A stretch of 20,271 nucleotides of DNA, taken from IMG/VR virus record IMGVR_UViG_3300048585_000031, positions 1 to 20,271 of that record; one strand, written 5' to 3'. The position numbers and the translations under genes were made by a program. Each line of letters starts with the position of its first letter. Position 1 is the first letter of the stretch. Below are positions 3 through 14,217 of this stretch, piece by piece. This DNA comes from a virus. Under the pieces are notes generated by a model that was not told the origin of the DNA, did no database searches, and was given only the letters and a program-made list of their open reading frames with translations.

Positions 3-3000
3 GAGGCTGATGTTCGACCGGACGCGGGCCTCGATGGGAAGATCAAGCGCCTCGAGCGCCAGAGACGGGCCGCGACATCTCCTGAGGATGTTGATAGGCT
101 CACAGACGAGATCGCCGATCTTGAGGCACGGCGCGGTCTGCCCACACCTGCGGTGGAAGCAGCGCGTCGTGTTCTGCAGGCTCAGGGTGTAGCGGTCCCG
201 CAGAGAGGTGAGGCGTCAGGGCCCACCGCTCAACCCGCTGAAGCCGAGGGTTTGCAGCCCGAGGGGACAGCATCAGGGCCGGTGGGCGCGGCAGCGCCTG
301 CCGGTCCGCGCAATGCGCTGGACACCACCCCATCCGAAGCTGAGGTGGCCACCATCTCGCGCTCCCGGGACCGGACCGCAGAGCGCCTGGCTGTCGACCA
401 GGCTCTCGCCGCGCGTGGTGTGACGGATCCAGCTGCCCGGCAGAAGGCTGTGAAGGCCTACGATGCCATGCGGGATGCCGGTGCCACGGTGGACACCTCC
501 CTGCGTGAGGCGACGGCGACCACCGCGCCTGAGCCCCCCATCGAAGGGTCGGGCGGCTTCGCCGCTCCGAACGGCCTCGCCTATATCGACCTGACCGCCA
601 AACTGGGCGTGCCTCGCGGCCTCGACAAGCTTGAGGAAGCCATGCTGGAATGGTCCACCGAGACTGGCTTCGAGGCTGGCGCCCATGTTGCGGCAGATGG
701 CACGGTGCTGGGGGTCGGGACCAACGAAGATCCCAACATGCTGATGCCGCCGGCCAAAGGTCTGAACGATCCCACGGTCATCTTCACGCACACCCATTCG
801 CAGAACACGCCTTTCTCGGCGGCGGACATGCGGGCGATGTTCAAGTCTGGCCAGACCTTCCGGGCTGTGCTGCCGGACGGGTCAGTGCTCGAGATGCGCC
901 CATTGAAGCCCTACGATGAGCAGGCCTTCGCGGAAATCTTCCAGGTGGTGCGGGGCGATCTGGCTGACACCATGCCGCCCGGGATGCCCTTCCTCGAGGC
1001 AGCGCAGGTCAAGCAGGAAGCCATGGTGCAGGCCCTCGAGATGGCCGGCATGATCGACTATGTCCGCCCTTTTCGCGGGCTATCCCAGACCCAGAAGGAG
1101 GCAGTGAATGCAACCGTCAACCGAACCGCTGATGCCGTCGCCCGTATTGGAGCTGGAGCTGATGGACGAGCGGGAACTCCGCAAGCTGATCAACCAGGGG
1201 GACAGGCTGGCGAGCGCCGAGCTGCAGATGAGGCGGAGGGAGAAATCGCCGACGACGACCTCGACGAAGAAGGGTTCGACTTCGAGCAAGCCCTCCTCGG
1301 CTCTGGCCAGTTCGACGACCGAAGCTCCGCCCGGGAAAAGCGGCCTTCCTTCAACCAAGCTCGCGTAGAGGAGATCGCTGACAAGATCATCGCCGACGTG
1401 ACCGCGCAGCGGTCTCGCCGCACGACCGGGGCCAAGCTGATCCGTGAGGGCACGGTCACGCGCGACCAGGTGATTGCCGGTATCGGTGAGTATCTGAAGA
1501 GCGACGGTCGCAAGCAGATGTACACGGTCATCGACGTGCGTCGGGCCATGTTCCGCGACCCGATCACCTTCGACATGATCGAGCAGAACCCGGACAACCG
1601 GACCGGTCGGGCTGGCCGGAAAGCTGGATCCTTGGTCTGGCGCGTGAAGCCCGAGCATCAGTGGCAGTTCAGCGTGGCGCTCGACCTCGAGCGCCTGATC
1701 AACAACGCCGGCATGGGGACGATCGAGCGCAGGGAAAACCGCTTTGCCGCGCAGGGCGACAAGCTGGACGGCAAGACCTATTTCGTTGAGGTCTCCAGTG
1801 CGCTCCGCAAGCACACCGAGCTGATCGGCCCGGAGGGGATGCGGTTCGACCCACCCTTGGCTGATCCTTCCGACACGCGAAAGATCAAGCGCAACACCAG
1901 GACCAACCGGCTCTCGCCGGAAGGTATCGAGGTTGCGCGGCGCACCGCGCGTTACCTGCAGGCCAATCGTTACAAGATCGACCGGCAGAAGCTCTATGCC
2001 CTCACCCCAGACAGCCTGGTGTCGGGTAAGTCCCTGGCCAAGGACGGCATCCGGGATGAGCACATCACGCAATGGGACGCCCTCAAGCCAACGCTGACGG
2101 GGGAATACAAGACCTGGAGCCGTCAGGACCAACAGTTTGCCCGGTCCTATGGCTGGAAGATCGACGAGAAGCGGCGCGAGGCCGCTGCGCGGCTGCGCCA
2201 GCTGCGGCTGGCCTATGAGACCTTCGCTGCCAAGCATGGGGCAGATGGCGACGTCGGGTTCCTCTACCAGATCGACGACCGTGGCCGGATCTATGCCGAT
2301 GGGTCGTTTCACCCGCAGGCCGACAGTTCCATCAAGGAACTCTTCTCGGTAGACGGCAAGAACCTCGTCACCGACATGGTGACCGTCGACAATTCGGCCT
2401 CTGGCTGGCAGATCAACGCGCTGATGGCCTACGACCACGTCGCTGCGCCGCGGCTGAACATGGGGCGGGGCCAGGCCTCCGAGGCTGGCTACAAGAAGTC
2501 CGACCTCTACAACAACACGCTCGAGGCCATGCGGCGCCGTCTCCTGGAGGATGCGGCCGACCCCACGGCGGGCGGCACCATCAGGATGACCCCGCAGCAG
2601 GCCGACAAGCGCCGGAGGCTGGCGCGGTATTTCTCCGACACCATCTTCCCGTCATCCGATCCCAACTCCTGGCTCCTGAACCGCAAGGGCATCAAGCCCG
2701 CCATCATCGCGATGAACTATGGCGGCCTGGAGAAGAACTTCCTCCGGGTGCTGACGCGCACGCTGTCGAAAGACATCAACCTCGATCCCGCCCTCAAGGA
2801 TGGGGCTTGGTCCTACCTGACCGAAGTGGGCATGGCCGGCGTTCGCGAGACTGCGCCGCACGCCCTGGCGCTGCAGGAGTGGACGATCAAGAACGTCTCC
2901 GCCCTGTCGAAGGCGCTCTACGCCAAGTATGGCAACGATGCGCCCCCGATCGAGATGACCATCGGCCTCGATGGCAAGATCGTCGTCAATCGCCCGAAGC

Positions 3001-6000
3001 GCGTGGATACCGAGACGCGCCTGAAGCAGGTGGCCCAGGGCGTCGAGAGCACGCTGGTCGCGAAGTTCAAGGTGGCCAAGCCTGAGCCTGACCATGACAA
3101 GGTGGCGAAGGCGGTCTGGGCCAACCTCGTCCAGTCCTATGACGCGGCTGTGCTGCACCGGACGGTCGAGCGGTACAAGAAGGCGACGAATGACGCCTAC
3201 ATCACCACGAACCACGACAGCTTCACCGTGCCTCCCGAGCATGAGGGGGCAATCGCCTCGTCTGTCCGCGAGAGCATGCGGACGATCATGGAGCAGGCCC
3301 CCGTGCCGAAGTGGCTCTTTGAGGAGATGGACGCGATGGCTCGGGTCCACGGTCTGGATCTGGACATTCAGCCGTTCGATAACCTTGGGCGCTACAACTA
3401 CGACGACCTGATGACCTCGACACCGGTCTTCGGGGAGATGGGGGCGCGCGAGGATTTCGTCCCTGAGTATGCCGACCTGCCGCAGGAGGGTGCTGACCTC
3501 CGTCGTGCGGTCGATGAAGAGGTTCCGGCGGGCGGAGCGGGTGCAGCCGCTGTCGGAATGTCCCCTGTTCGCGGTCCGGTCCGCGGGCAGGGGGCCACGT
3601 CCATCGCCGACCTGCCACCCGAGGCTCGGCGCGCAGTCGACGTGGCTGACTACATGGCTCAGCTGCCGCAAAGCAGCTCGCTCCTGACCAAGGTTCAGGA
3701 TGCGATGACCTCACCGAAGGTGGCCAACCGCACCCTCTGGCAGATCATCGAGGACAAGTTCTTCAACTCGGCGGCCCCGATCCGCAGGCTGGAGATCGCG
3801 CTCACCGGTGGGCTTGCCGATGGGGCTGAGAGCGCCTTCAAGGCTGTCGAGATGGCGGTGCAGGACAGCGGCCGGCAGGAGGCGATGCTCTACTACGGCG
3901 CGGCGGCCTTCGGAAAGCACGGCGAGTATACCGTAGCCCCGGGGACGATGGGGTTGTTCGACATTTTCAAGCTGGCGGGCGGCGAGGGGGCTGGCCGTGG
4001 GCAGCGCCTGCAGGACTGGATGCAATGGATGGTCGCCCGCAGGGCGCAGGACCTGGTGGCGCGCGGGATCAAGACCCCGCTCACGCCGCAGGACATCCAG
4101 GCCGCGCTTGCCAAGGGGGCGAACATCCCTGAATTCCAGCAGGCAGCGGATGCGTGGAAGAAGTTCAACGACGCCAACCTCGACTTCCTTGAGCAGTCGG
4201 GGCGGATCAACGCGGCGCAGAAGGCGGCAATGCAGGCCGATGACTTCTATGTCCCCTTCTACCGCTCGGATGAGCGGGTCGATGGCACCTCGCCTGAGCT
4301 GGAGCTGCCCGAGTACAAGGCCGGCACCACGAAGGTCGGCGTTCTCAGCCGGGATCCGGGGATCAAGGCGATCAAGGGTGGCGACAAGCTCCGCATCGAC
4401 AACCTGATGCAGAACATGATCCGCAACAGCCAGGCCATTCAGGCGGCAGGCATGCGGAACCGTGCGGCCAACCAGACCTTCGACCTGATGAAGATGGCCA
4501 ATTTGGCCACTGTCCAACCGCTGACGGCGAAGAAGCCCGATCCGAATGCGGTACGCGTGTGGCAAAATGGTGTCGAAAGCTGGCTGGTGCCGGAGGGGCG
4601 TGAGGCTTACCCCTTGATGATGGCCCTGGCAGGGATGCAGCCCATCCAGCAGGGTGTTGGCACTCGTTTCATGACGGACATGGCCAACATCTTCCGGCAG
4701 GGCATCACGCTCACGCCGCCCTTCATGATCCGCAACGCGATCCGGGGGGCTGTGTCGTCTGGCATCATGACCACCGGGGCCAACCTGACCCTGACCAACA
4801 ACACGATCACCGGCTTCCGGGAGGCCTACAACAACGGGCAGGCGGCGCAGGCCTTCAAGGCGCAGTCCGGCATGGGGGACTACCGCTTCGGCAACGCCGA
4901 TACCGGTCTCTTCGGCAAGGATGACCTCCTGATCGACTTCGGGGTCATGGACAAGACGCTGGGGTCGCGCTTCCGCAAGTTCATGGAGAAGATGGAGCAT
5001 GTCGGCTCGGCGACGGAACTCGCCGACCGGATCGCTGCGCGCGAGACCATGATCAAGAACGGCATGCGGCCGGATGAGGCGTCCTATCAGGCCCTGACGA
5101 TCATGAACTACAGCCGGAAGGGGAACAGCCAGACGCTGCGCGCTCTTCTGCCCTTGGTCCCGTTCATGAACGCCCGCCTGCAGGGCCTTTCGCGCATGGC
5201 TGAAGGTGCGGTGGGCAAGCGCGGCGCCCTTGGGCGCAAGCAGGCGCTGATGCAGATGGCGCTGAACGGCTTGGTTTACACCGCCCTGGGCGCTGCCATC
5301 TGGCTCTGGAATGCCTCGGATGAAGAGCGCCGCGAGAAGTACACGCAGGAGCCTCTGTTCCGGCGCCTGAACTTCCACATCGTCTACGTGGGAGGGGAGA
5401 CCCTCTACATTCCGAAGGCGTTCGAGCTGGGGCACCTCTTCACTTCGATCCCTGAGCTGTTCGCCGACGCCATGATCATGAGGGACATGAACGAAGCTGG
5501 GTCCACGGGCTTTGGGCAGGTGGCGACCGGTTTGAAGAAGATGGTCTACGACACTGTGGCCATGAACCTCATTCCTGCAGCCATGCTGCCCACGCTCGAG
5601 GCGTTGACGAATTACAGCTTCTTCCGTCAGGCGCAGCTCGAGGGGCAGCGAGAGCAGGACATGCTTCCAGCCGACCGTACATCGGGAGCATCCATGCTCT
5701 CCCGCCTTGTTGGGCGCGACCTTGGCGTGTCGGAATTCACCGGCATCTCGCCCACCATGATCGAGCACTGGCTCTCCAGCCATGGCGGGATCTATTACAC
5801 GATGCTCAGCACTGCGGTGGAGATTGCGGCCGGGGACCTTGGGCTTGCGCCTGTGCGGCCGGGCGGGGCTTTCGGTGATGTGCCGCTGATTTCTCCTGCG
5901 CTCAACGCGGCCTTCGGCTCAATGGTCAAGGATAGTGCAGTGACGCCCTCGAGGTTCATCGAGGAGTACTACAAGACGAGGGATCACATCACGCAGATCT

Positions 6001-6320
6001 ATCGGTCGGCCACGAATGCCGCCCGTGGCGGAGACGTCGAGTATGCCCGTCGCCTGCTCTCCGAGTTCGGTGGCGCTCCAGCGGCCTACAAGATCATGAA
6101 CCAGGCTGGCACCGAACTGACGGACATCAACACCGCCCTCAGGATGCTGCGCGACAATCGGACCATGACGCGCGAGCAGAAGCGCATCGAGGAAGAGAAG
6201 CTGATCGCCAGGCGTAATGCCATTTCCCGGAAGGTCATGGAGGTCGTAAGGGCGATCGAGGAGAAGCAGGGGGCGAACTTCAGTCGTGGTCAGGGAGCTT
6301 TGAGCCGGATTTTGCCGTGA
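3..6320 (+). CDS. Giant polyvalent virion protein with JAMM-like peptidase and T7-like RNA polymerase domains (5' end outside window)
   Basis: The frame is open from base 3 to the TGA at 6318, giving at least 2105 residues. A GTG at 153 has no ribosome site and the coiled-coil-like sequence continues upstream of it, so the true start lies left of the window. Counting the codon at base 3 as residue 1: a charged helical segment (1-60) and a Pro/Gly/Ala linker; a JAMM-like domain (about 180-310, HTH at 263-265 with S272 and D275); an acidic linker (about 370-450); a single-subunit RNA polymerase core (about 455-1145); a second linker (1160-1215); and a helical C-terminal half with one hydrophobic segment (1752-1769). 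The C-terminal part resembles LPD38, a domain common in phage polyvalent proteins. Established analogy: N4 packages a T7-like polymerase in its virion. Inferred role: packaged, ejected with DNA, transcribes early genes. The stop overlaps the terminase start by 4 bp. Polymerase call is firm; virion location is inferred. Confidence 0.88.
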   Translation, partial: EADVRPDAGLDGKIKRLERQRRAATSPEDVDRLTDEIADLEARRGLPTPAVEAARRVLQAQGVAVPQRGEASGPTAQPAEAEGLQPEGTASGPVGAAAPAGPRNALDTTPSEAEVATISRSRDRTAERLAVDQALAARGVTDPAARQKAVKAYDAMRDAGATVDTSLREATATTAPEPPIEGSGGFAAPNGLAYIDLTAKLGVPRGLDKLEEAMLEWSTETGFEAGAHVAADGTVLGVGTNEDPNMLMPPAKGLNDPTVIFTHTHSQNTPFSAADMRAMFKSGQTFRAVLPDGSVLEMRPLKPYDEQAFAEIFQVVRGDLADTMPPGMPFLEAAQVKQEAMVQALEMAGMIDYVRPFRGLSQTQKEAVNATVNRTADAVARIGAGADGRAGTPQADQPGGQAGERRAADEAEGEIADDDLDEEGFDFEQALLGSGQFDDRSSAREKRPSFNQARVEEIADKIIADVTAQRSRRTTGAKLIREGTVTRDQVIAGIGEYLKSDGRKQMYTVIDVRRAMFRDPITFDMIEQNPDNRTGRAGRKAGSLVWRVKPEHQWQFSVALDLERLINNAGMGTIERRENRFAAQGDKLDGKTYFVEVSSALRKHTELIGPEGMRFDPPLADPSDTRKIKRNTRTNRLSPEGIEVARRTARYLQANRYKIDRQKLYALTPDSLVSGKSLAKDGIRDEHITQWDALKPTLTGEYKTWSRQDQQFARSYGWKIDEKRREAAARLRQLRLAYETFAAKHGADGDVGFLYQIDDRGRIYADGSFHPQADSSIKELFSVDGKNLVTDMVTVDNSASGWQINALMAYDHVAAPRLNMGRGQASEAGYKKSDLYNNTLEAMRRRLLEDAADPTAGGTIRMTPQQADKRRRLARYFSDTIFPSSDPNSWLLNRKGIKPAIIAMNYGGLEKNFLRVLTRTLSKDINLDPALKDGAWSYLTEVGMAGVRETAPHALALQEWTIKNVSALSKALYAKYGNDAPPIEMTIGLDGKIVVNRPKRVDTETRLKQVAQGVESTLVAKFKVAKPEPDHDKVAKAVWANLVQSYDAAVLHRTVERYKKATNDAYITTNHDSFTVPPEHEGAIASSVRESMRTIMEQAPVPKWLFEEMDAMARVHGLDLDIQPFDNLGRYNYDDLMTSTPVFGEMGAREDFVPEYADLPQEGADLRRAVDEEVPAGGAGAAAVGMSPVRGPVRGQGATSIADLPPEARRAVDVADYMAQLPQSSSLLTKVQDAMTSPKVANRTLWQIIEDKFFNSAAPIRRLEIALTGGLADGAESAFKAVEMAVQDSGRQEAMLYYGAAAFGKHGEYTVAPGTMGLFDIFKLAGGEGAGRGQRLQDWMQWMVARRAQDLVARGIKTPLTPQDIQAALAKGANIPEFQQAADAWKKFNDANLDFLEQSGRINAAQKAAMQADDFYVPFYRSDERVDGTSPELELPEYKAGTTKVGVLSRDPGIKAIKGGDKLRIDNLMQNMIRNSQAIQAAGMRNRAANQTFDLMKMANLATVQPLTAKKPDPNAVRVWQNGVESWLVPEGREAYPLMMALAGMQPIQQGVGTRFMTDMANIFRQGITLTPPFMIRNAIRGAVSSGIMTTGANLTLTNNTITGFREAYNNGQAAQAFKAQSGMGDYRFGNADTGLFGKDDLLIDFGVMDKTLGSRFRKFMEKMEHVGSATELADRIAARETMIKNGMRPDEASYQALTIMNYSRKGNSQTLRALLPLVPFMNARLQGLSRMAEGAVGKRGALGRKQALMQMALNGLVYTALGAAIWLWNASDEERREKYTQEPLFRRLNFHIVYVGGETLYIPKAFELGHLFTSIPELFADAMIMRDMNEAGSTGFGQVATGLKKMVYDTVAMNLIPAAMLPTLEALTNYSFFRQAQLEGQREQDMLPADRTSGASMLSRLVGRDLGVSEFTGISPTMIEHWLSSHGGIYYTMLSTAVEIAAGDLGLAPVRPGGAFGDVPLISPALNAAFGSMVKDSAVTPSRFIEEYYKTRDHITQIYRSATNAARGGDVEYARRLLSEFGGAPAAYKIMNQAGTELTDINTALRMLRDNRTMTREQKRIEEEKLIARRNAISRKVMEVVRAIEEKQGANFSRGQGALSRILP
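540..930 (+). other. JAMM/JAB-like metallopeptidase domain within the giant protein
   Basis: The motif H-T-H followed by S and D (codons at 789, 795, 816 and 825) resembles the zinc-binding signature of JAMM/MPN+ peptidases, which remove ubiquitin-like tags or cleave isopeptide bonds. Candidate catalytic glutamates lie about 40 residues upstream (codons at 660 and 672), the distance expected for this fold. The spacing between the second His and the Ser is six residues; classical JAMM motifs have seven. JAB domains are recurrent parts of phage polyvalent proteins. Possible roles are self-processing of the polyprotein or attack on a host modifier; neither is shown by the sequence. Confidence 0.6.
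1108..1368 (+). CDS. Possible out-of-frame nested gene with its own Shine-Dalgarno
   Basis: An 86-codon reading frame lies inside the giant gene in another frame. It starts with ATG directly after a same-frame TGA (1105-1107), and a perfect AAGGAGG sits at 1095-1101, six bases upstream. The first 46 codons have about 87% G/C at third positions by my count, while the host frame has only about 37% there; 30 codons further on the host frame returns to about 83%. The product would have an N-terminal charged helix (around MDERELRKLINQGDRLASAE) and a Ser/Thr/Pro/Lys-rich tail. Caution: linkers rich in Ala, Gly, Asp and Arg codons automatically raise G/C in this alternative frame. I do not recognise the product. 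An ancient double frameshift in the linker could give the same codon pattern. Confidence 0.3.
   Translation: MQPSTEPLMPSPVLELELMDERELRKLINQGDRLASAELQMRRREKSPTTTSTKKGSTSSKPSSALASSTTEAPPGKSGLPSTKLA
1371..3430 (+). other. T7-like single-subunit DNA-directed RNA polymerase domain within the giant protein
   Basis: All catalytic landmarks of the T7/N4 polymerase family are present in order. A DxRGRxY motif (codons 2274-2294) matches the T7 DWRGRVY segment and the N4-type xxGR element. Motif A has Asp at 2388 in a DNSASGWQ context, like T7 D537 with downstream SG.Q. Motif B is RKGIKPAIIAMNYGG, with R at 2682, K at 2694 and Y-G at 2718-2723; the R-K spacing of four and K-Y spacing of eight equal T7 R627, K631 and Y639. 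Motif C is HDSF, with Asp at 3216, matching T7 D812. The motif A-to-K and K-to-motif C distances (102 and 174 residues) are close to T7 (94 and 181). Residues needed for the two-metal mechanism are intact, so activity is expected. Confidence 0.92.
4590..5700 (+). other. LPD38-like helical polyvalent-protein-associated region
   Basis: This part of the giant protein carries TLTPPFMIRNAIRGA, a TELADRIAARE helix, MNYSRKG, and LLPLVPFMNARLQGL followed by a hydrophobic segment (bases 5256-5309) and YIPKAFELG. I recognise this arrangement from the large polyvalent protein-associated domain LPD38, found at the C-terminal end of many phage polyvalent proteins. Its biochemical role is unknown. The hydrophobic helix could interact with membrane during DNA ejection, which is inference. 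Boundaries are approximate. Confidence 0.55.
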
Positions 6321-7267
6321 GACAGATACTTGCCTCCGAGATTGCGGAGATCCGGCGGCTCATCGACAAGCAGCGGCTGGCCAACTTCGACATCCTCAGC
6401 CGGATCGAGCGCATCCCAGCACCGCTCGAGTTCGGTGAGGCCATCCTCGGGTCCAGGTTCGATGCGTGGCAGCGCCGTTACATGGAGGAGTGCCGGGCCC
6501 GGGGCCGGATCGCCATGGCGGCCTGCCGCCAGTCGGGCAAGTCCACCGTCACCGCCCTCTTCGTGGCGTGGTGCCTGATCTTCATCCCTGGCTTCCAGTG
6601 CCTCGTGGCCTCGCGCTCTCTGCGTCAGGCCTCCCACTACCTGAACGCCGTGCGGAACGCGGTCCTCTCGGTCATCCCGCGCGAGGCGATGCCGCAGCTG
6701 AACCGGCTGAGCATGGAGCTTCCGAACGGGAGCCAGATCATCTCCATCCCCTGCGCCCAGCCAGATGCGGGCCGGGGCTTCTCGCCCCACCTGATCATCC
6801 TGGACGAGGCCGCGTTCGCGCCGGAGGCGCTCTTCCGGGCCATCACACCATCGCTGGCTGCGACGGACGGGGCGCTGCATATGCTGTCGTCACCGAACGG
6901 GCGGCAGGGCTACTTCTTCGAGGCGTTCGAGGGCGAGGCGCAGAGCGTCTTCATGTCGATGAAGGTGCCCTACACCCAATGCCCCCGGATCTCCGAAGAG
7001 ACGATCCGGAACGAGAAGATTGCGTTGGGCGACCTCTACTTTCGGCAGGAATACGGGGCCGAGTTCATCACCCCGCACGGGGCCTTCTTCGGCTTCTCGG
7101 CGCTCCAAAACCTCGAGGAAGGTGAGGATCCCGACCTGACAGACCTGACACTGCTGGACATGGACAAGGTCCTTGAGAAGATCATGCCGGTGCCGTCACC
7201 AAGAAAAGAGGACCTGACCGTGGCACTGGACAGGGCGCAGAGGGTCAATCAGATGTTGTACGAATGA
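6317..7267 (+). CDS. terL: Terminase large subunit, ATPase (motor) domain only
   Basis: This 316-residue protein is the DNA-packaging motor ATPase that would dock on the portal and pump DNA into the procapsid. It has a FDAWQRRY adenine-binding Q motif (about residue 52), Walker A CRQSGKST (70-77), Walker B HLIILDEAAF with D163-E164, and the coupling motif SSP (191-193) followed by GRQGYFFEAF. The sequence then ends after a helical tail (about 245-316) without the RNase H-like nuclease domain, which is encoded by the next gene. The start is GTG, overlapping the stop of the giant gene as GTGA, so translation is probably coupled. The stop overlaps the nuclease gene start as ATGA. The domain lacks nothing needed for ATP hydrolysis. 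The split from the nuclease is unusual. Confidence 0.9.
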   Translation: MRQILASEIAEIRRLIDKQRLANFDILSRIERIPAPLEFGEAILGSRFDAWQRRYMEECRARGRIAMAACRQSGKSTVTALFVAWCLIFIPGFQCLVASRSLRQASHYLNAVRNAVLSVIPREAMPQLNRLSMELPNGSQIISIPCAQPDAGRGFSPHLIILDEAAFAPEALFRAITPSLAATDGALHMLSSPNGRQGYFFEAFEGEAQSVFMSMKVPYTQCPRISEETIRNEKIALGDLYFRQEYGAEFITPHGAFFGFSALQNLEEGEDPDLTDLTLLDMDKVLEKIMPVPSPRKEDLTVALDRAQRVNQMLYE

Positions 7268-7983
7268 ACGAGGTCCCGCAATTCAACCGGATCGTGGACT
7301 GGAAGCAGCGGGGCTATCACCTCCGCATGCCGCCTCTGGTCCTGGTCGGCTACGACCCCGCTGGCGACGGGCGCGACAAGGATGCCATGACCCTCACGGC
7401 GCGCGAGGAGCATCAGAAGGGTGAGCCCTACGACCCCGACTTCTCGGTCATGATGCTCTACCGGGTGCTGATGGCCCACGAGATGTCGCCAGACCTCGAG
7501 TTCCCCGACAAGCTCGCCATGCTCCTCAGGCTGCACCGGCAACTGAAGGGCTGGGCCCGCGCAGGGCGCTGCACCAACCACGTCTTCACGGTCGAGACGA
7601 ACGGTGTGGGCTATGCCATGGGGTCGGCACTCCGCTCGAATATCGGCAACAACGTGGTCACCTACACCACCGTGGGCAACGCCACCGACAAGCCCTATAC
7701 CGAGAAGCGGCTGGCGATGCCGCGGCTGGCGGCGCTGGACAACCTCCGCGTTCTGGCGGAGACCCACGCTCTCAAGCTGGCCAAGGACGCGCCAGGCCGG
7801 GAGATACTCCTGCGGCAGATGGCGTCCTTCGTCTGGCGCAGGGCCGGTCGGCCGGAGGCGATCGAGGGGCAGCACGACGACATGGTACTGTCGCTGGCGG
7901 GGGCCTGCTGGATCGGCACCAAGGTCATTCCGCCCCTTCTGAAGCAGATCCCGGTGCGGACCACGGGCATGCGGAGGCAATGA
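7264..7983 (+). CDS. terL: Terminase large subunit, RNase H-like nuclease domain as a separate protein
   Basis: This 239-residue protein carries the acidic triad of terminase nucleases: GYDPAGDG with D31, VFTVETNG with E111, and EGQHDDMVL with D205/D206. The enzyme cuts concatemeric phage DNA at the start and end of packaging, using divalent metal. The N-terminal segment (1-25) looks like the linker that joins the two domains in ordinary terminases. The ATG overlaps the ATPase stop (ATGA), and there is no good ribosome site within 12 bases, so it probably depends on termination-reinitiation. The frame stays open upstream only to 7177. The two products presumably reassemble into one working motor-nuclease. 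A programmed frameshift fusing them is possible but not favoured. Confidence 0.87.
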   Translation: MNEVPQFNRIVDWKQRGYHLRMPPLVLVGYDPAGDGRDKDAMTLTAREEHQKGEPYDPDFSVMMLYRVLMAHEMSPDLEFPDKLAMLLRLHRQLKGWARAGRCTNHVFTVETNGVGYAMGSALRSNIGNNVVTYTTVGNATDKPYTEKRLAMPRLAALDNLRVLAETHALKLAKDAPGREILLRQMASFVWRRAGRPEAIEGQHDDMVLSLAGACWIGTKVIPPLLKQIPVRTTGMRRQ

Positions 7984-8049: not shown

Positions 8050-10470
8050 ATGGCTGACGGCGATCTCATCTTCACGCGGGACGAGGACGGGGTGACGTTC
8101 GGCCCGCCCGCGCAACCTCCGCAGCCTGAGGAAAAGCCTCACACGACGAACATCGCGACGGAGATGACGCAACCCTCCCTCGATGCGATCGCGGAGAGCC
8201 TGACCGAAACCATCGCCTTCGACCAGGATGGTGTCTCGCCGTGGGAGAATATCGCCGTCGAGGTGATGGACCACCTGGGTCTTGGCCCCGATGCGGACAG
8301 TGACGACGCCTCCGACGACAACTCCGACACCTCCAGTCACACCCTGATGCTCACCGCGCTCCTGCGGTTCCAGGCCAAGGCGCTGTCGGTCATGCTGCCC
8401 TCGGATGACATGGCGGTGCGGACAAAGCCCGCGTTTGATCTGGATCAGATCGAGGACGAGGACGAGCGCGACAAGGCCACCGAGATGATCACGGCGGCTG
8501 AGCGCCGGGTGCAGCAGTTCTATACCGACTACCTCTTCCACCGGCTTCCCTCCTACGAGGAGGACACCGATCAGATCCTGCACGACATGGGGTTGATGGG
8601 GGTTGGTCTCCGCAAGATCGTGGTGGACCGGTCGCGGCAGTCCACGCCGGTCATGCCCGAGTATGTCCCTGCGGAAAACCTGATCGTCTCCTACTCGAGC
8701 CGGAACTTCCGCATGGGGCGCTATGCCCACAAGATGGACATGCCCACCGGCGACCTGATCCGGCGCATCCAGACCGGAGCCTACCGCCCGATCAAGCTCT
8801 ACGATCAGGCAGTGCCGGACAGCAACGCGGTCAGCGATGCGCGCGACAAGGTCTTCGGCCTGGTGCCGGCCAACCTCATGAACACCGAGACGCATCGGAT
8901 GTATGAGGTCTACACCCACCTCTTCCTCGAGGCAGACCCTCACCCGCTGCGGCTTCCCCGGCCCTACATCGTCACCATCCACTCGGAGAGCCGCGAAGTC
9001 CTCGCGATCCAGCGCAACTGGGATCAGGCCGATCCGGACGAGACACCGCTCGAGCACTTCGTCGGTTACATCTACCACCCGGGCAAGAGCGCATCGACGG
9101 GGATCGGCCTTGGCCAGATCCTGCTGCAGACCACCAAGGCACTCCGCAAGGCGCAGCGCCGCACGCTCGAGGCTGGCTACCTGCAGAACCACCCCTCCGG
9201 GTTCAAGCTCTCCAACCTCTCCATCCGCAATGGCGACACCAAGGTGCGCCCTGGCGAGTTCGTCGACGTGGATAGTCCGACGGGAGACATCCGGCAGGCG
9301 CTGATGATGCACCCGTTCCAAGGCCCGTCGCAGGGCCTGATGGCTCTGGCGCAGACGTTGGAAGCCAACGGGCGCGAACTGGGCGGCATCGCCTCCATCG
9401 ACTTCGCCAGCCTGATGAAGGCCGGTGTTGCGGCGGGCCCGGCCATGGCGGCCTTCGAGGAAAGCACCGAGTTCCAGACCTCCGTCCACCGCCGCCTCTA
9501 CAAGGCGCACCGCAAGGAGCTGGAGATCATCCACGACCGGATGCGGACCGTGATGGGCAACAAGCCCGTCCTGTTCGGCACCGACCAGACCTTGGAGCCA
9601 GGCGACCTCGTGGGGGTGGATATCCTGCCCTACATGCAGCCCGGTCAGGCCTCGCGCCAGAAGGTCATCATGGAAGCGCAGGCGATCTGGGATCTGGCGA
9701 AGGAGAACCCCGACCTCCTGAACAAGCGCCGCGCCGCAGAGAACTTCGTCCGCGCCCTTGGCTCGCCCGATGCGGACCGGCTGATGATCCCCGACCCCGA
9801 GGAAGAAGAGGTCATGCCGGCGGACCCGATCACCGAATACTCGATGAGCCTCGCGGGCAAGCCCGTGCGGGCAGGCCCGATGCAGAACCACCAGGCCCAC
9901 ATCGACGCCCACACAGCGCAGATGCGGATGGTCCAGACCTCCTCCCTGCCGGTCGAGCAGGGCGAAGCGGTCATGGCCGCCCTGGCAGCTCACATCGCAG
10001 AGCACATGGGCATGCAGATGATGGTCGAGGCGGCCGCGATGCTCGGCATCGACATGGCGCAGATCGGTCCGGACATGGCGCCCGAGGTGGAGGCGCAGCT
10101 TGCGCCGGCGCTGGCTGCAGCGGTGGTGCAGCTGGAAGAGATGCGGCGTCAGCCCGATCCCGAGGAGGCGCGGATCCAGACCGCCCGCGTGGTGGGCGAG
10201 AGCCGGATCGAGGCGACCCGCGTGGCGGCCGAAGGCCGCCTGGCGCTGGCCAACCTGCAGAACGCCCACGAGCGTCAGATGGCCGACGTGAAGGCCAAGT
10301 ACGACCAGATATTGCAGGACATCAAGGATGCCGCAGCGCTCGACCGCGAGGTCGAGGACAACGCCGTTGCCCTGCAGATCGCCAAGCTCAAGGGGAACAA
10401 GAACGCCGACGCCGGCGCTGGCGCTTCAGCCAGCGGCGGCGCGGTGGCCCGCGCCGGGGCGAACTCCTGA
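8050..10470 (+). CDS. Portal protein (head-to-tail connector)
   Basis: At 806 residues this is the length expected of large podovirus portals (P22/SU10/N4 type). Such portals form a dodecameric ring at one capsid vertex and are the docking site for the terminase and adaptors. An acidic N-terminus (about 1-100) precedes the clip/wing/stem region, with segments such as HRLPSYEEDTDQILHDMGLMG, EYVPAENLIV, and STGIGLGQILLQTTKALRKA, which are typical of this portal group. The C-terminal 120 residues are a long charged coiled coil, consistent with a barrel domain inside the capsid, ending in an Ala/Gly-rich tail. An AGGAG (8039-8043) stands upstream of the ATG. The position directly after the terminase and before the scaffold and capsid genes agrees. 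Confidence 0.85.
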   Translation: MADGDLIFTRDEDGVTFGPPAQPPQPEEKPHTTNIATEMTQPSLDAIAESLTETIAFDQDGVSPWENIAVEVMDHLGLGPDADSDDASDDNSDTSSHTLMLTALLRFQAKALSVMLPSDDMAVRTKPAFDLDQIEDEDERDKATEMITAAERRVQQFYTDYLFHRLPSYEEDTDQILHDMGLMGVGLRKIVVDRSRQSTPVMPEYVPAENLIVSYSSRNFRMGRYAHKMDMPTGDLIRRIQTGAYRPIKLYDQAVPDSNAVSDARDKVFGLVPANLMNTETHRMYEVYTHLFLEADPHPLRLPRPYIVTIHSESREVLAIQRNWDQADPDETPLEHFVGYIYHPGKSASTGIGLGQILLQTTKALRKAQRRTLEAGYLQNHPSGFKLSNLSIRNGDTKVRPGEFVDVDSPTGDIRQALMMHPFQGPSQGLMALAQTLEANGRELGGIASIDFASLMKAGVAAGPAMAAFEESTEFQTSVHRRLYKAHRKELEIIHDRMRTVMGNKPVLFGTDQTLEPGDLVGVDILPYMQPGQASRQKVIMEAQAIWDLAKENPDLLNKRRAAENFVRALGSPDADRLMIPDPEEEEVMPADPITEYSMSLAGKPVRAGPMQNHQAHIDAHTAQMRMVQTSSLPVEQGEAVMAALAAHIAEHMGMQMMVEAAAMLGIDMAQIGPDMAPEVEAQLAPALAAAVVQLEEMRRQPDPEEARIQTARVVGESRIEATRVAAEGRLALANLQNAHERQMADVKAKYDQILQDIKDAAALDREVEDNAVALQIAKLKGNKNADAGAGASASGGAVARAGANS

Positions 10471-10696: not shown

Positions 10697-11230
10697 ATGT
10701 CCCTGATCCTACCCAAAGCCACCGCTCAAGCGATCAGCGCCCAGCGCCAGTCGGCCGTCGCTGACAGCATCCAGAGATCCTCGATCAACCAGCTCACCTC
10801 CGATGACTTCGTGACGGTGAAGGAGGTCGAGCGGCAGATCCTCGAGCTGCGCGAATACATCGCTGATCGTCGTCAGGTCGAACCCGAGTACCGCCTGCCG
10901 CACCCGGCGGGCTGGCGTGTGTCGGTCCTGATGCTGACGGTGCCGGAAGTGACGGATGGTGGTGTCCACATCGTGGATGAAATGCGTGAGGCGCGCGGCA
11001 TGGCCTCGCCGCAGGGGATCGTTCTGGCGCTTGGCCAGGGCGCGTTCCAGGACAAGAGCCGCTTCACCATCAACGGCGAGCTTGCACCCTGGCTGCATGT
11101 CGGGGATCGGGTGATCTGGAAGAAGTACGACGTCACCACCTTCCAGATCGGAAACGGCCAGCGCCTGGGGTTCATGAACGACACCCAGGCTGTGGCCACC
11201 ATCGACAACGGCTGGATCGTTCCGGCTTAA
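10697..11230 (+). CDS. GroES-like co-chaperonin (phage Cpn10)
   Basis: Residues 70-172 follow the GroES (Cpn10) pattern. It begins with GWRVSVLMLTVPE, followed by DGGVHIVDE, which matches the GroES mobile loop (GGIVL-type) that binds GroEL. Next come SPQGIVLALGQG, like the GroES G.V.AVG strand, then WLHVGDRVIWKKYD, matching the VGD.V.F element, and a final strand ending AVATID. A 65-residue helical N-terminal extension is not part of classical GroES. Phage T4 gp31 is a known GroES substitute needed to fold its capsid protein in GroEL; the position of this gene, just before scaffold and capsid genes, suggests the same job. A Shine-Dalgarno GGAGAG precedes the ATG. An alternative is a structural protein that merely shares the fold. 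Confidence 0.7.
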   Translation: MSLILPKATAQAISAQRQSAVADSIQRSSINQLTSDDFVTVKEVERQILELREYIADRRQVEPEYRLPHPAGWRVSVLMLTVPEVTDGGVHIVDEMREARGMASPQGIVLALGQGAFQDKSRFTINGELAPWLHVGDRVIWKKYDVTTFQIGNGQRLGFMNDTQAVATIDNGWIVPA

Positions 11231-13308: not shown

Positions 13309-14217
13309 ATGTCAGCGATTAACAGAGCAGCCCTCCGGGAACAGCTGTGGCCCGGAATTTTCGAGATCTTCGGTTCGACCTATTCGGACTACGAGGATCA
13401 GTACGGCTACATCTTCACGACCCGGAAGTCGACCAAGGCCTACGAAGAATACGTGATGGAGAGCATGTTCGGCCTGGCACCGCCCAAGGCTGAAGGCGCT
13501 CCGATCATCTTCGACGAAGCGGCTGAGGTCTGGAAGGGCCGGGTGGAAATGAACGCCTATGCGTTGGGCTTCATCATCACCCGCGAAGCGGTGAACGACA
13601 ACCAGTACTTCGACCTGGTGCCGCGTTACACCCGCGCCCTGAAGCGGTCCATGAAGATCACCAAGGAAGTCCGCGCTGCGGCCTTCGTTGATGCGGCCTT
13701 CACCACCTCGACCACCGGTGACGGCAAGCCGATCTGTGCTGTCGACCACCCGCTGCGGAACGGCGAAGTGCTGTCCAACCGCCCCGCAGCTGCGGCCGAC
13801 CTGAACGAGACCTCGCTGGAAGCCGCGATCATCCAGATCGGCGACTTCGTTGACGAGCGCGGCCTCAAGATCGCCGTGAACGCCCGTCGTATGGTCGTTC
13901 CGAACTCGTTGCAGTTCACCGCCGAGCGTCTGATGAAGACGACCGGCGCGCGAGTTGCCACGGCGGACAACGACATTGCGGCGATCCACACCCTCGGCAT
14001 GGTTCCCGAAGGATACCGGATCAACAACTACCTGAGCGATCCGGCGGCCTGGTTCCTCATGACGGACGTGGACGAGGGCATGACCCACTGGGACCGCGAA
14101 CCCCTTGATCTTGAAGAAGGAGATGGGTCCGAAACACAAACCATGCGGGTAATGGCATACGAGCGCTATGCTTTTAGTTGCATGGACCCGCGCTCGATCT
14201 TCGGCGTGCCTGGCTGA
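13309..14217 (+). CDS. Major capsid protein
   Basis: The 302-residue product has the size and layout of an HK97-fold shell protein. It has an N-terminal arm with FGSTYSDYEDQYGYIFTTRKS, an extended loop region, a helix-rich domain (YTRALKRSMKITKEVRAAAF), DHPLRNGEV, NARRMVVPNSLQFTAERLMK, and a closing segment (MRVMAYERYAFSCMDPRSIFG). The pattern resembles capsid proteins of the Mu gpT-like and podovirus groups. AAGGAGG (13292-13298) is the strongest ribosome site in the window, with a ten-base spacer. The gene is followed by a strong hairpin, as expected after the most highly made virion protein. No protease domain is seen, so maturation presumably uses the separate scaffold. Confidence 0.85.
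   Translation: MSAINRAALREQLWPGIFEIFGSTYSDYEDQYGYIFTTRKSTKAYEEYVMESMFGLAPPKAEGAPIIFDEAAEVWKGRVEMNAYALGFIITREAVNDNQYFDLVPRYTRALKRSMKITKEVRAAAFVDAAFTTSTTGDGKPICAVDHPLRNGEVLSNRPAAAADLNETSLEAAIIQIGDFVDERGLKIAVNARRMVVPNSLQFTAERLMKTTGARVATADNDIAAIHTLGMVPEGYRINNYLSDPAAWFLMTDVDEGMTHWDREPLDLEEGDGSETQTMRVMAYERYAFSCMDPRSIFGVPG

Follow-up and report, generated by a model that had tools for sequence, protein, structure and literature searches.

A T7-type RNA polymerase within a cysteine-free giant polyvalent protein of an HTVC023P-like phage, probably packaged and ejected

A giant phage protein encoded at one end of a 20,271-base IMG/VR fragment of environmental DNA (the window, that is, the whole stretch of DNA analysed here) is probably an ejection protein that includes a catalytically active T7-type RNA polymerase and that would be packaged, injected and put to the transcription of early genes. 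With slightly less assurance, we also think it likely that this protein represents a second, independent origin of a packaged single-subunit RNA polymerase: a T7-type enzyme in a Cys-free JAMM/LPD38 ejection protein of an HTVC023P-like podovirus; the enzyme would transcribe some 30 early units, most of them monocistronic, and small structured RNAs, and the host would make the late genes. Such a phage would be N4-like in its working, yet its enzyme does not belong to the N4 virion polymerase family.

The giant gene occupies positions 3..6320 of the plus strand as a single open frame of 2105 codons without an internal stop, open at the window edge so that its 5' end lies beyond it. Homologous frames (57-75% identity) were found in four other IMG/VR contigs, and since one of these, G001, is an identical 43.6-kb piece of another, G004, they represent three further distinct giant proteins. 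The frame is therefore not a chimaera of one assembly; it is real and conserved among relatives. G004 (69,145 b) is probably a closed, complete genome, judging by its terminal direct repeat of 42 b. Its giant protein has 2761 aa, compared with which the copy in the window is short of about 650 N-terminal residues. From the N- to the C-terminus, the window copy comprises a linker (residues 1-105), a JAMM-like fold, an acidic linker, the polymerase (residues 455-1143), a further linker and an 855-residue C-terminus with LPD38. An earlier note, made from the letters of the window, had read a single frame of at least 2105 codons as joining JAMM-like, polymerase and LPD38-like parts directly before the terminase gene, and this description holds: the frame is intact and runs four bases into the terminase ATPase gene, its stop overlapping the GTG start (GTGA at 6317-6320). 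When further relatives were sought by the polymerase or the C-terminus, the scans turned up the same few contigs and no new ones. A prophage origin was considered and found to be unsupported, the bacterial genomes scanned having yielded no relatives of the giant protein.

The C-terminal region (3753..6317, plus strand), delimited by phrog_18222, phrog_9854, tblastn and alignment, is common to polyvalent proteins of other phages. It is the most conserved long part of the giant protein (77-86% in the alignment) and the only part for which tblastn found homologues in sequenced phages at E 1e-5. The LPD38 domain within it (5334..5822, plus strand; residues 1778-1940) matches Pfam PF18857 with E 4.4e-20, which bears out the polyvalent C-terminus proposed before. 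With an LPD38 match, several unrelated domains and adjoining packaging genes, the protein has the make-up of a polyvalent protein with LPD38. The N-terminal linker (3..317, plus strand) is 92-100% identical between relatives by sliding identity, and its dS is 0.16-0.19 as against 0.6-1.4 elsewhere; from this near-identical stretch the sequence changes abruptly to a variable region. The low dS and the abrupt shift indicate that cassettes were exchanged at that point, and the linker is probably a recombination boundary at which the enzyme cassettes are swapped.

The JAMM-like fold, which forms the alpha-beta core of the AlphaFold model, spans 621..971 (plus strand). The model of this part has a pLDDT of 73 and the JAB order of elements, and a Foldseek search against the PDB placed P. 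furiosus JAMM1 in the top three positions (probability 0.98, 0.94 and 0.90; next best 0.18), with E values of 0.05-0.11 that are not significant alone; phmmer against PDB chains gave no match for the JAMM part. The residues of the E..HxH..S..D signature (672..827, plus strand) are encoded at 672-674 (Glu), 789-797 (HxH), 816-818 (Ser) and 825-827 (Asp), and all five are invariant in 4/4 giant proteins. The JAMM-like motif recognised earlier stands as regards its residues, but its spacing, H-x-H-x6-S-x2-D, is one residue below the classical x7. As judged from the model, the giant protein likely contains a JAMM fold; that the domain trims or remodels the giant protein itself, as the self-processing suggested earlier would have it, or a host target, is a guess.

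The polymerase module (1365..3431, plus strand) was identified by Pfam, PHROG, hhalign, a tree and dN/dS. Residues 793-1111 match Pfam RNA_pol PF00940 (E 1.3e-10, 41.2 bits, curated cut-off 22) and residues 793-1140 match PHROG 414 RNA polymerase (E 3.7e-28). Profile-profile comparison by hhalign with the T7, SP6, phiKMV and P-SSP7 enzymes gave a probability of 98.4% and E 4.8e-15 and reached the C-terminal foot, whereas the same comparison with seven N4-family virion polymerases gave 0.5% and E 0.12. Likewise, an HMM built from the four giant-protein polymerases matched T7 at 5.6e-16 and did not find the N4 virion polymerase, and phmmer against PDB chains matched T7 polymerase weakly (E 9e-4). 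In the maximum-likelihood tree, of the kind proposed in the earlier note, these polymerases form a long-branched clade among T7-type enzymes and apart from the N4 virion polymerases, the long branches leaving their exact position among T7-type enzymes unsure. All the motifs read from the letters align to T7 catalytic residues: DxRGR at 2274..2288 (D304-R308 of the module; T7 R425), the motif A Asp at 2388..2390 (T7 D537), motif B R-x3-K-x7-Y-G at 2682..2723, at T7 spacing (T7 R627, K631, Y639 and G640), and motif C HDS at 3213..3221 (T7 H811 and D812), each on the plus strand. By these comparisons the enzyme belongs with the T7 type, not with the N4 virion polymerases. To call it complete was nevertheless too much: the catalytic core and the C-terminal foot are there, but T7 has about 80 residues more between DxxGR and motif A, and neither the T7 N-terminal domain nor the palm insertion was recognised. 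AlphaFold, with only four sequences, gave a model of the polymerase (pLDDT 55, pTM 0.31) too poor for a fold search, and its identity rests on profile-profile comparison in place of a structure model. The catalytic residues are invariant in the four genomes, including L004 (43% identical over the domain), and for the catalytic part dN/dS is 0.24-0.25 in comparison with the two nearer relatives and 0.48 with L004; on these values the catalytic part is under purifying selection. It is the only single-subunit RNA polymerase in G004.

None of the four giant proteins contains a single Cys (0 in 2105, 2761, 1713 and 2144 aa). Other proteins of the G004 phage average 0.89% Cys, and those of the structural genes after the giant gene 0.66%; at the phage's own Cys frequencies, the chance of 0 Cys in 2761 aa is about 1e-8 to 1e-11. 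The G004 neighbours g66-g69 (the S74 protein, the M15 peptidase and proteins of 106 and 1034 aa) are also Cys-free, as are the N4 virion polymerase (3500 aa), N4 gp51/gp52 and T7 gp15/gp16. By comparison, the non-packaged RNAPII of N4 has 13 Cys in 673 aa, and five free T7-type polymerases have 10-13 Cys each; a Cys in motif A, common to these five compared enzymes, is Ala in 4/4 giant proteins. The same hallmark was used in a published annotation of a putative virion polymerase (PMC10747016). The signal is not confined to ejected proteins, however, as the 806-aa portal lacks Cys too.

The giant gene lies after those of the S74 protein, the M15 peptidase and the 1034-aa protein and before terminase and portal, and thus, by what its neighbours appear to encode, within an ejection-protein-like cluster. 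The ATPase part of the terminase large subunit (6317..7267, plus strand), which overlaps the giant gene by 4 b, is followed by the portal protein (8050..10470, plus strand), related to those of HTVC023P-type phages, and the major capsid protein (13309..14217, plus strand), 52% identical to that of Pelagibacter phage HTVC023P. The large terminase subunit appears to be split, a second ORF (7264-7983) with a DPAGDG-like stretch overlapping the ATPase ORF by 4 b, and the same arrangement is present in G004. A GroES-like co-chaperonin (10697-11230; Cpn10, E 2.1e-5) is encoded between portal and capsid, and such a protein is common to HTVC023P, CRP-901, RW and Pag-Yong1. By portal, GroES-like protein and capsid, the phage belongs with HTVC023P, CRP-901, Pag-Yong1, Caulobacter RW and their relatives. 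The examined parts of HTVC023P, CRP-901, QDWS535, DSL-LC04, RW and Pag-Yong1 gave no single-subunit polymerase, nor did 80 related IMG/VR contigs, of which many are short. In 20 relatives, neither PF00940 nor LPD38 was matched; in the control, the PF00940 scan detected T7, N4 and G004, while the LPD38 scan was run without such a control.

Candidate target sites of the polymerase were found in relatives. G004 contains 30 copies of a T7-like promoter-like element with the consensus CGKGGTCCCCATAGGRA; with up to three mismatches, two 20-kb stretches hold 18 and 12 sites, about 0.2 per 20 kb being expected. GGTCCC and a GG at the predicted start are invariant, and in the best alignment the consensus agrees with the T7 promoter at 11/17 positions and with the K11 promoter at 12/17, the T7 match being equalled by 0.7% of shuffled consensuses. 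Along the non-structural arm of G004, on the minus strand at about 9-23 kb, the order terminator hairpin, T run, element, ribosome-binding site and start codon is repeated regularly. The sites are co-directional with non-structural genes or small structured RNAs and lie 20-45 nt upstream of start codons; 25/32 left-arm genes have a site within 80 nt upstream, and 5 of the other 7 overlap the preceding gene. A terminator-like hairpin stands within 80 nt before 22/29 minus-strand sites, as against 69/600 random positions. The distinct relative G2 has nine sites with the same consensus. Among 2.9 million IMG/VR contigs, the exact pattern occurs in many copies in three polymerase-bearing contigs and once in one other, 3300014208_000123, which was rejected as a promoter carrier, the single isolated copy being treated as chance.

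No copy was found in the 20 kb of the G004 structural region searched, and the window gave a chance-level match only, as its fragment holds late genes only. A single rightward site, at G004 26781, lies upstream of the structural operon, and read-through from it past the terminator into the structural genes could occur. Host-promoter-like stretches (TCGACA-17-CATAGT; TGnTATCGT after a terminator) stand before the structural operon and the primase gene and are kept in G2; measured against the consensus, the host-type promoters before the structural operon are weak. Within the element there is an inverted repeat, TCCC-n4-GGGA, with an invariant 5' arm and a variable 3' arm, and hence without conserved pairing. 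A hairpin promoter of the N4 type was therefore discarded, the 3' arm not being kept complementary and the start falling inside the hairpin.

At several sites predicted non-coding transcripts begin, 73-274 nt long and ending in T runs. Short ORF-less transcription units follow one another in a row at about 22,040-22,930 of G004 (minus strand; L012 2040-2930) and at 21790-22615 of G2 (L024+L025, plus strand). Two of these predicted units, about 147 and 188 nt long, are conserved in both genomes, and the 147-nt unit folds better than its shuffles (z about -2 to -2.4) and has two compensatory pairs. A search of the promoter-rich region, including the small RNAs, against Rfam gave no match.

From these results, the following programme may be proposed. 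The giant protein would be made alongside the other structural proteins, probably by the host RNA polymerase, packed into the head with its Cys-free neighbours and fed through the short tail into the next cell to be infected. There, the injected polymerase would transcribe the non-structural (early) genes and the small RNAs from the T7-like double-stranded promoters, starting at GG. That the left arm is early we infer from its predicted content (helicase, small genes). In T7, it is the structural genes that the phage enzyme transcribes, the reverse of the promoter distribution seen here. In N4, the virion enzyme serves the early genes and the host polymerase the late ones (PMC4496689), an order described as opposite to that of any other well-studied phage (PMC4496689); promoters on non-structural genes and none in the structural operon that encodes the polymerase fit this order. 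Taken together, the promoter distribution, the Cys test and the neighbourhood make an enzyme that is produced late, packaged and used at the next entry the simplest account. The earlier suggestion, that a transcription machine is ejected by a phage that differs from N4, gains from the absence of Cys, the ejection-type cluster and the restriction of promoters to non-structural genes, from which packaging, ejection, timing and the reading of these promoters by this polymerase are still inferred.

An alternative that we regard as unlikely is a T7-like programme in which the host polymerase makes the enzyme early in the cell, the fusion is incidental and packaging is not needed. Enzyme and promoters are indeed both T7-type, and the rightward element at G004 26781 would allow read-through into the structural operon. 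However, the polymerase is encoded within that operon, between ejection-type proteins and terminase, the structural region is devoid of promoter copies, and a lack of Cys is in keeping with ejected proteins but not with free RNA polymerases. It is more doubtful still that the repeated element is a host-type regulatory site or an RNA leader rather than a promoter of this polymerase. Its place shortly before start codons and its short inverted repeat would suit such a role, but it also stands ahead of conserved non-coding transcripts and, far more often than random positions, directly after terminators; GG is invariant at the predicted start, 11-12 of 17 positions match the T7 and K11 promoters, the repeat does not conserve its pairing, and the element co-occurs with the polymerase.

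It appears very improbable that the polymerase has lost its catalytic activity and survives solely as a structural component of the ejection protein: the unrecognised N-terminal domain and palm insertion speak for such a relic, whereas every catalytic residue is unchanged even in the distant L004 and the dN/dS against the two nearer relatives is low. Membership in the N4 virion polymerase family, suggested by the like plan of N-terminal region, polymerase and large C-terminus, by the location among structural genes and by the lack of Cys, can hardly be credited, being refuted at the profile level by hhalign and placed on the T7 side by the tree; in addition, no HExxH occurs in the three giant proteins scanned, and capsid, portal and gene order are HTVC023P-like.

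The packaged and ejected T7-type polymerase favoured here shares features with several known systems. Like N4 gp50 (Schitoviridae), the protein is giant and Cys-free and has its single-subunit polymerase in the centre, before a large C-terminus; its gene lies among structural genes, next to those of other Cys-free ejection proteins, and it belongs to a phage whose promoter-bearing genes are non-structural. It differs in that the polymerase is T7-type by profile and tree, a JAMM-like domain replaces the HExxH of N4, the promoters are T7-like and double-stranded instead of hairpins, and the structural genes are of the HTVC023P type. With the RNA polymerases of Autographiviridae (T7, SP6, phiKMV, P-SSP7) it has the catalytic motifs, the C-terminal foot and the ATAGGG-type promoter core in common; those enzymes, however, are free, Cys-containing, about 800-900 aa long and made in the cell, while the present one is fused into a Cys-free polyvalent protein, is without some 80 residues between DxxGR and motif A, and is accompanied by promoters on non-structural genes only. 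As in LPD polyvalent proteins (Iyer et al. 2017, PMC5512222), several domains, including a peptidase-like domain, a nucleic-acid enzyme and LPD38, are joined near packaging genes, but the LPD38 proteins of the other phages examined have methylase, helicase or ParB-like domains in place of the polymerase, and polymerases in polyvalent proteins were reported in N4-like phages only (PMC5512222). Portal, GroES-like protein, scaffold region, capsid and M15 peptidase are shared with the HTVC023P/CRP-901 podoviruses, of which, in contrast, CRP-901 and CRP-902 have no RNA polymerase genes; 4/24 related metagenomic genomes encode an RNA polymerase, which was not further described (PMC10149686).

A 2025 study called the giant virion polymerase unique to Schitoviridae, the N4-like phages (PMC12633501). 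If the proposed programme is true, it is not, and an unrelated phage has reached the N4 order by convergence, with a T7-type enzyme. It would then be testable which features ejection demands, such as the absence of Cys, a loosely linked chain and an LPD C-terminus. A new polymerase/promoter pair would also be on offer, and the Cys rule would serve as a cheap sequence marker for ejected proteins. The LPD38 giants of Vibrio phage 1.232.O, phiARM81mr and Pag-Yong1, which bear other enzyme domains, likewise have 0 Cys in 3292, 3190 and 2772 aa, and the absence of Cys may be a general mark of ejected polyvalent proteins. A short GLNE(P/K) motif recurs in g66, g67 and g68 of G004 and at the N-terminus of g70; it is possibly a common docking or packaging signal.
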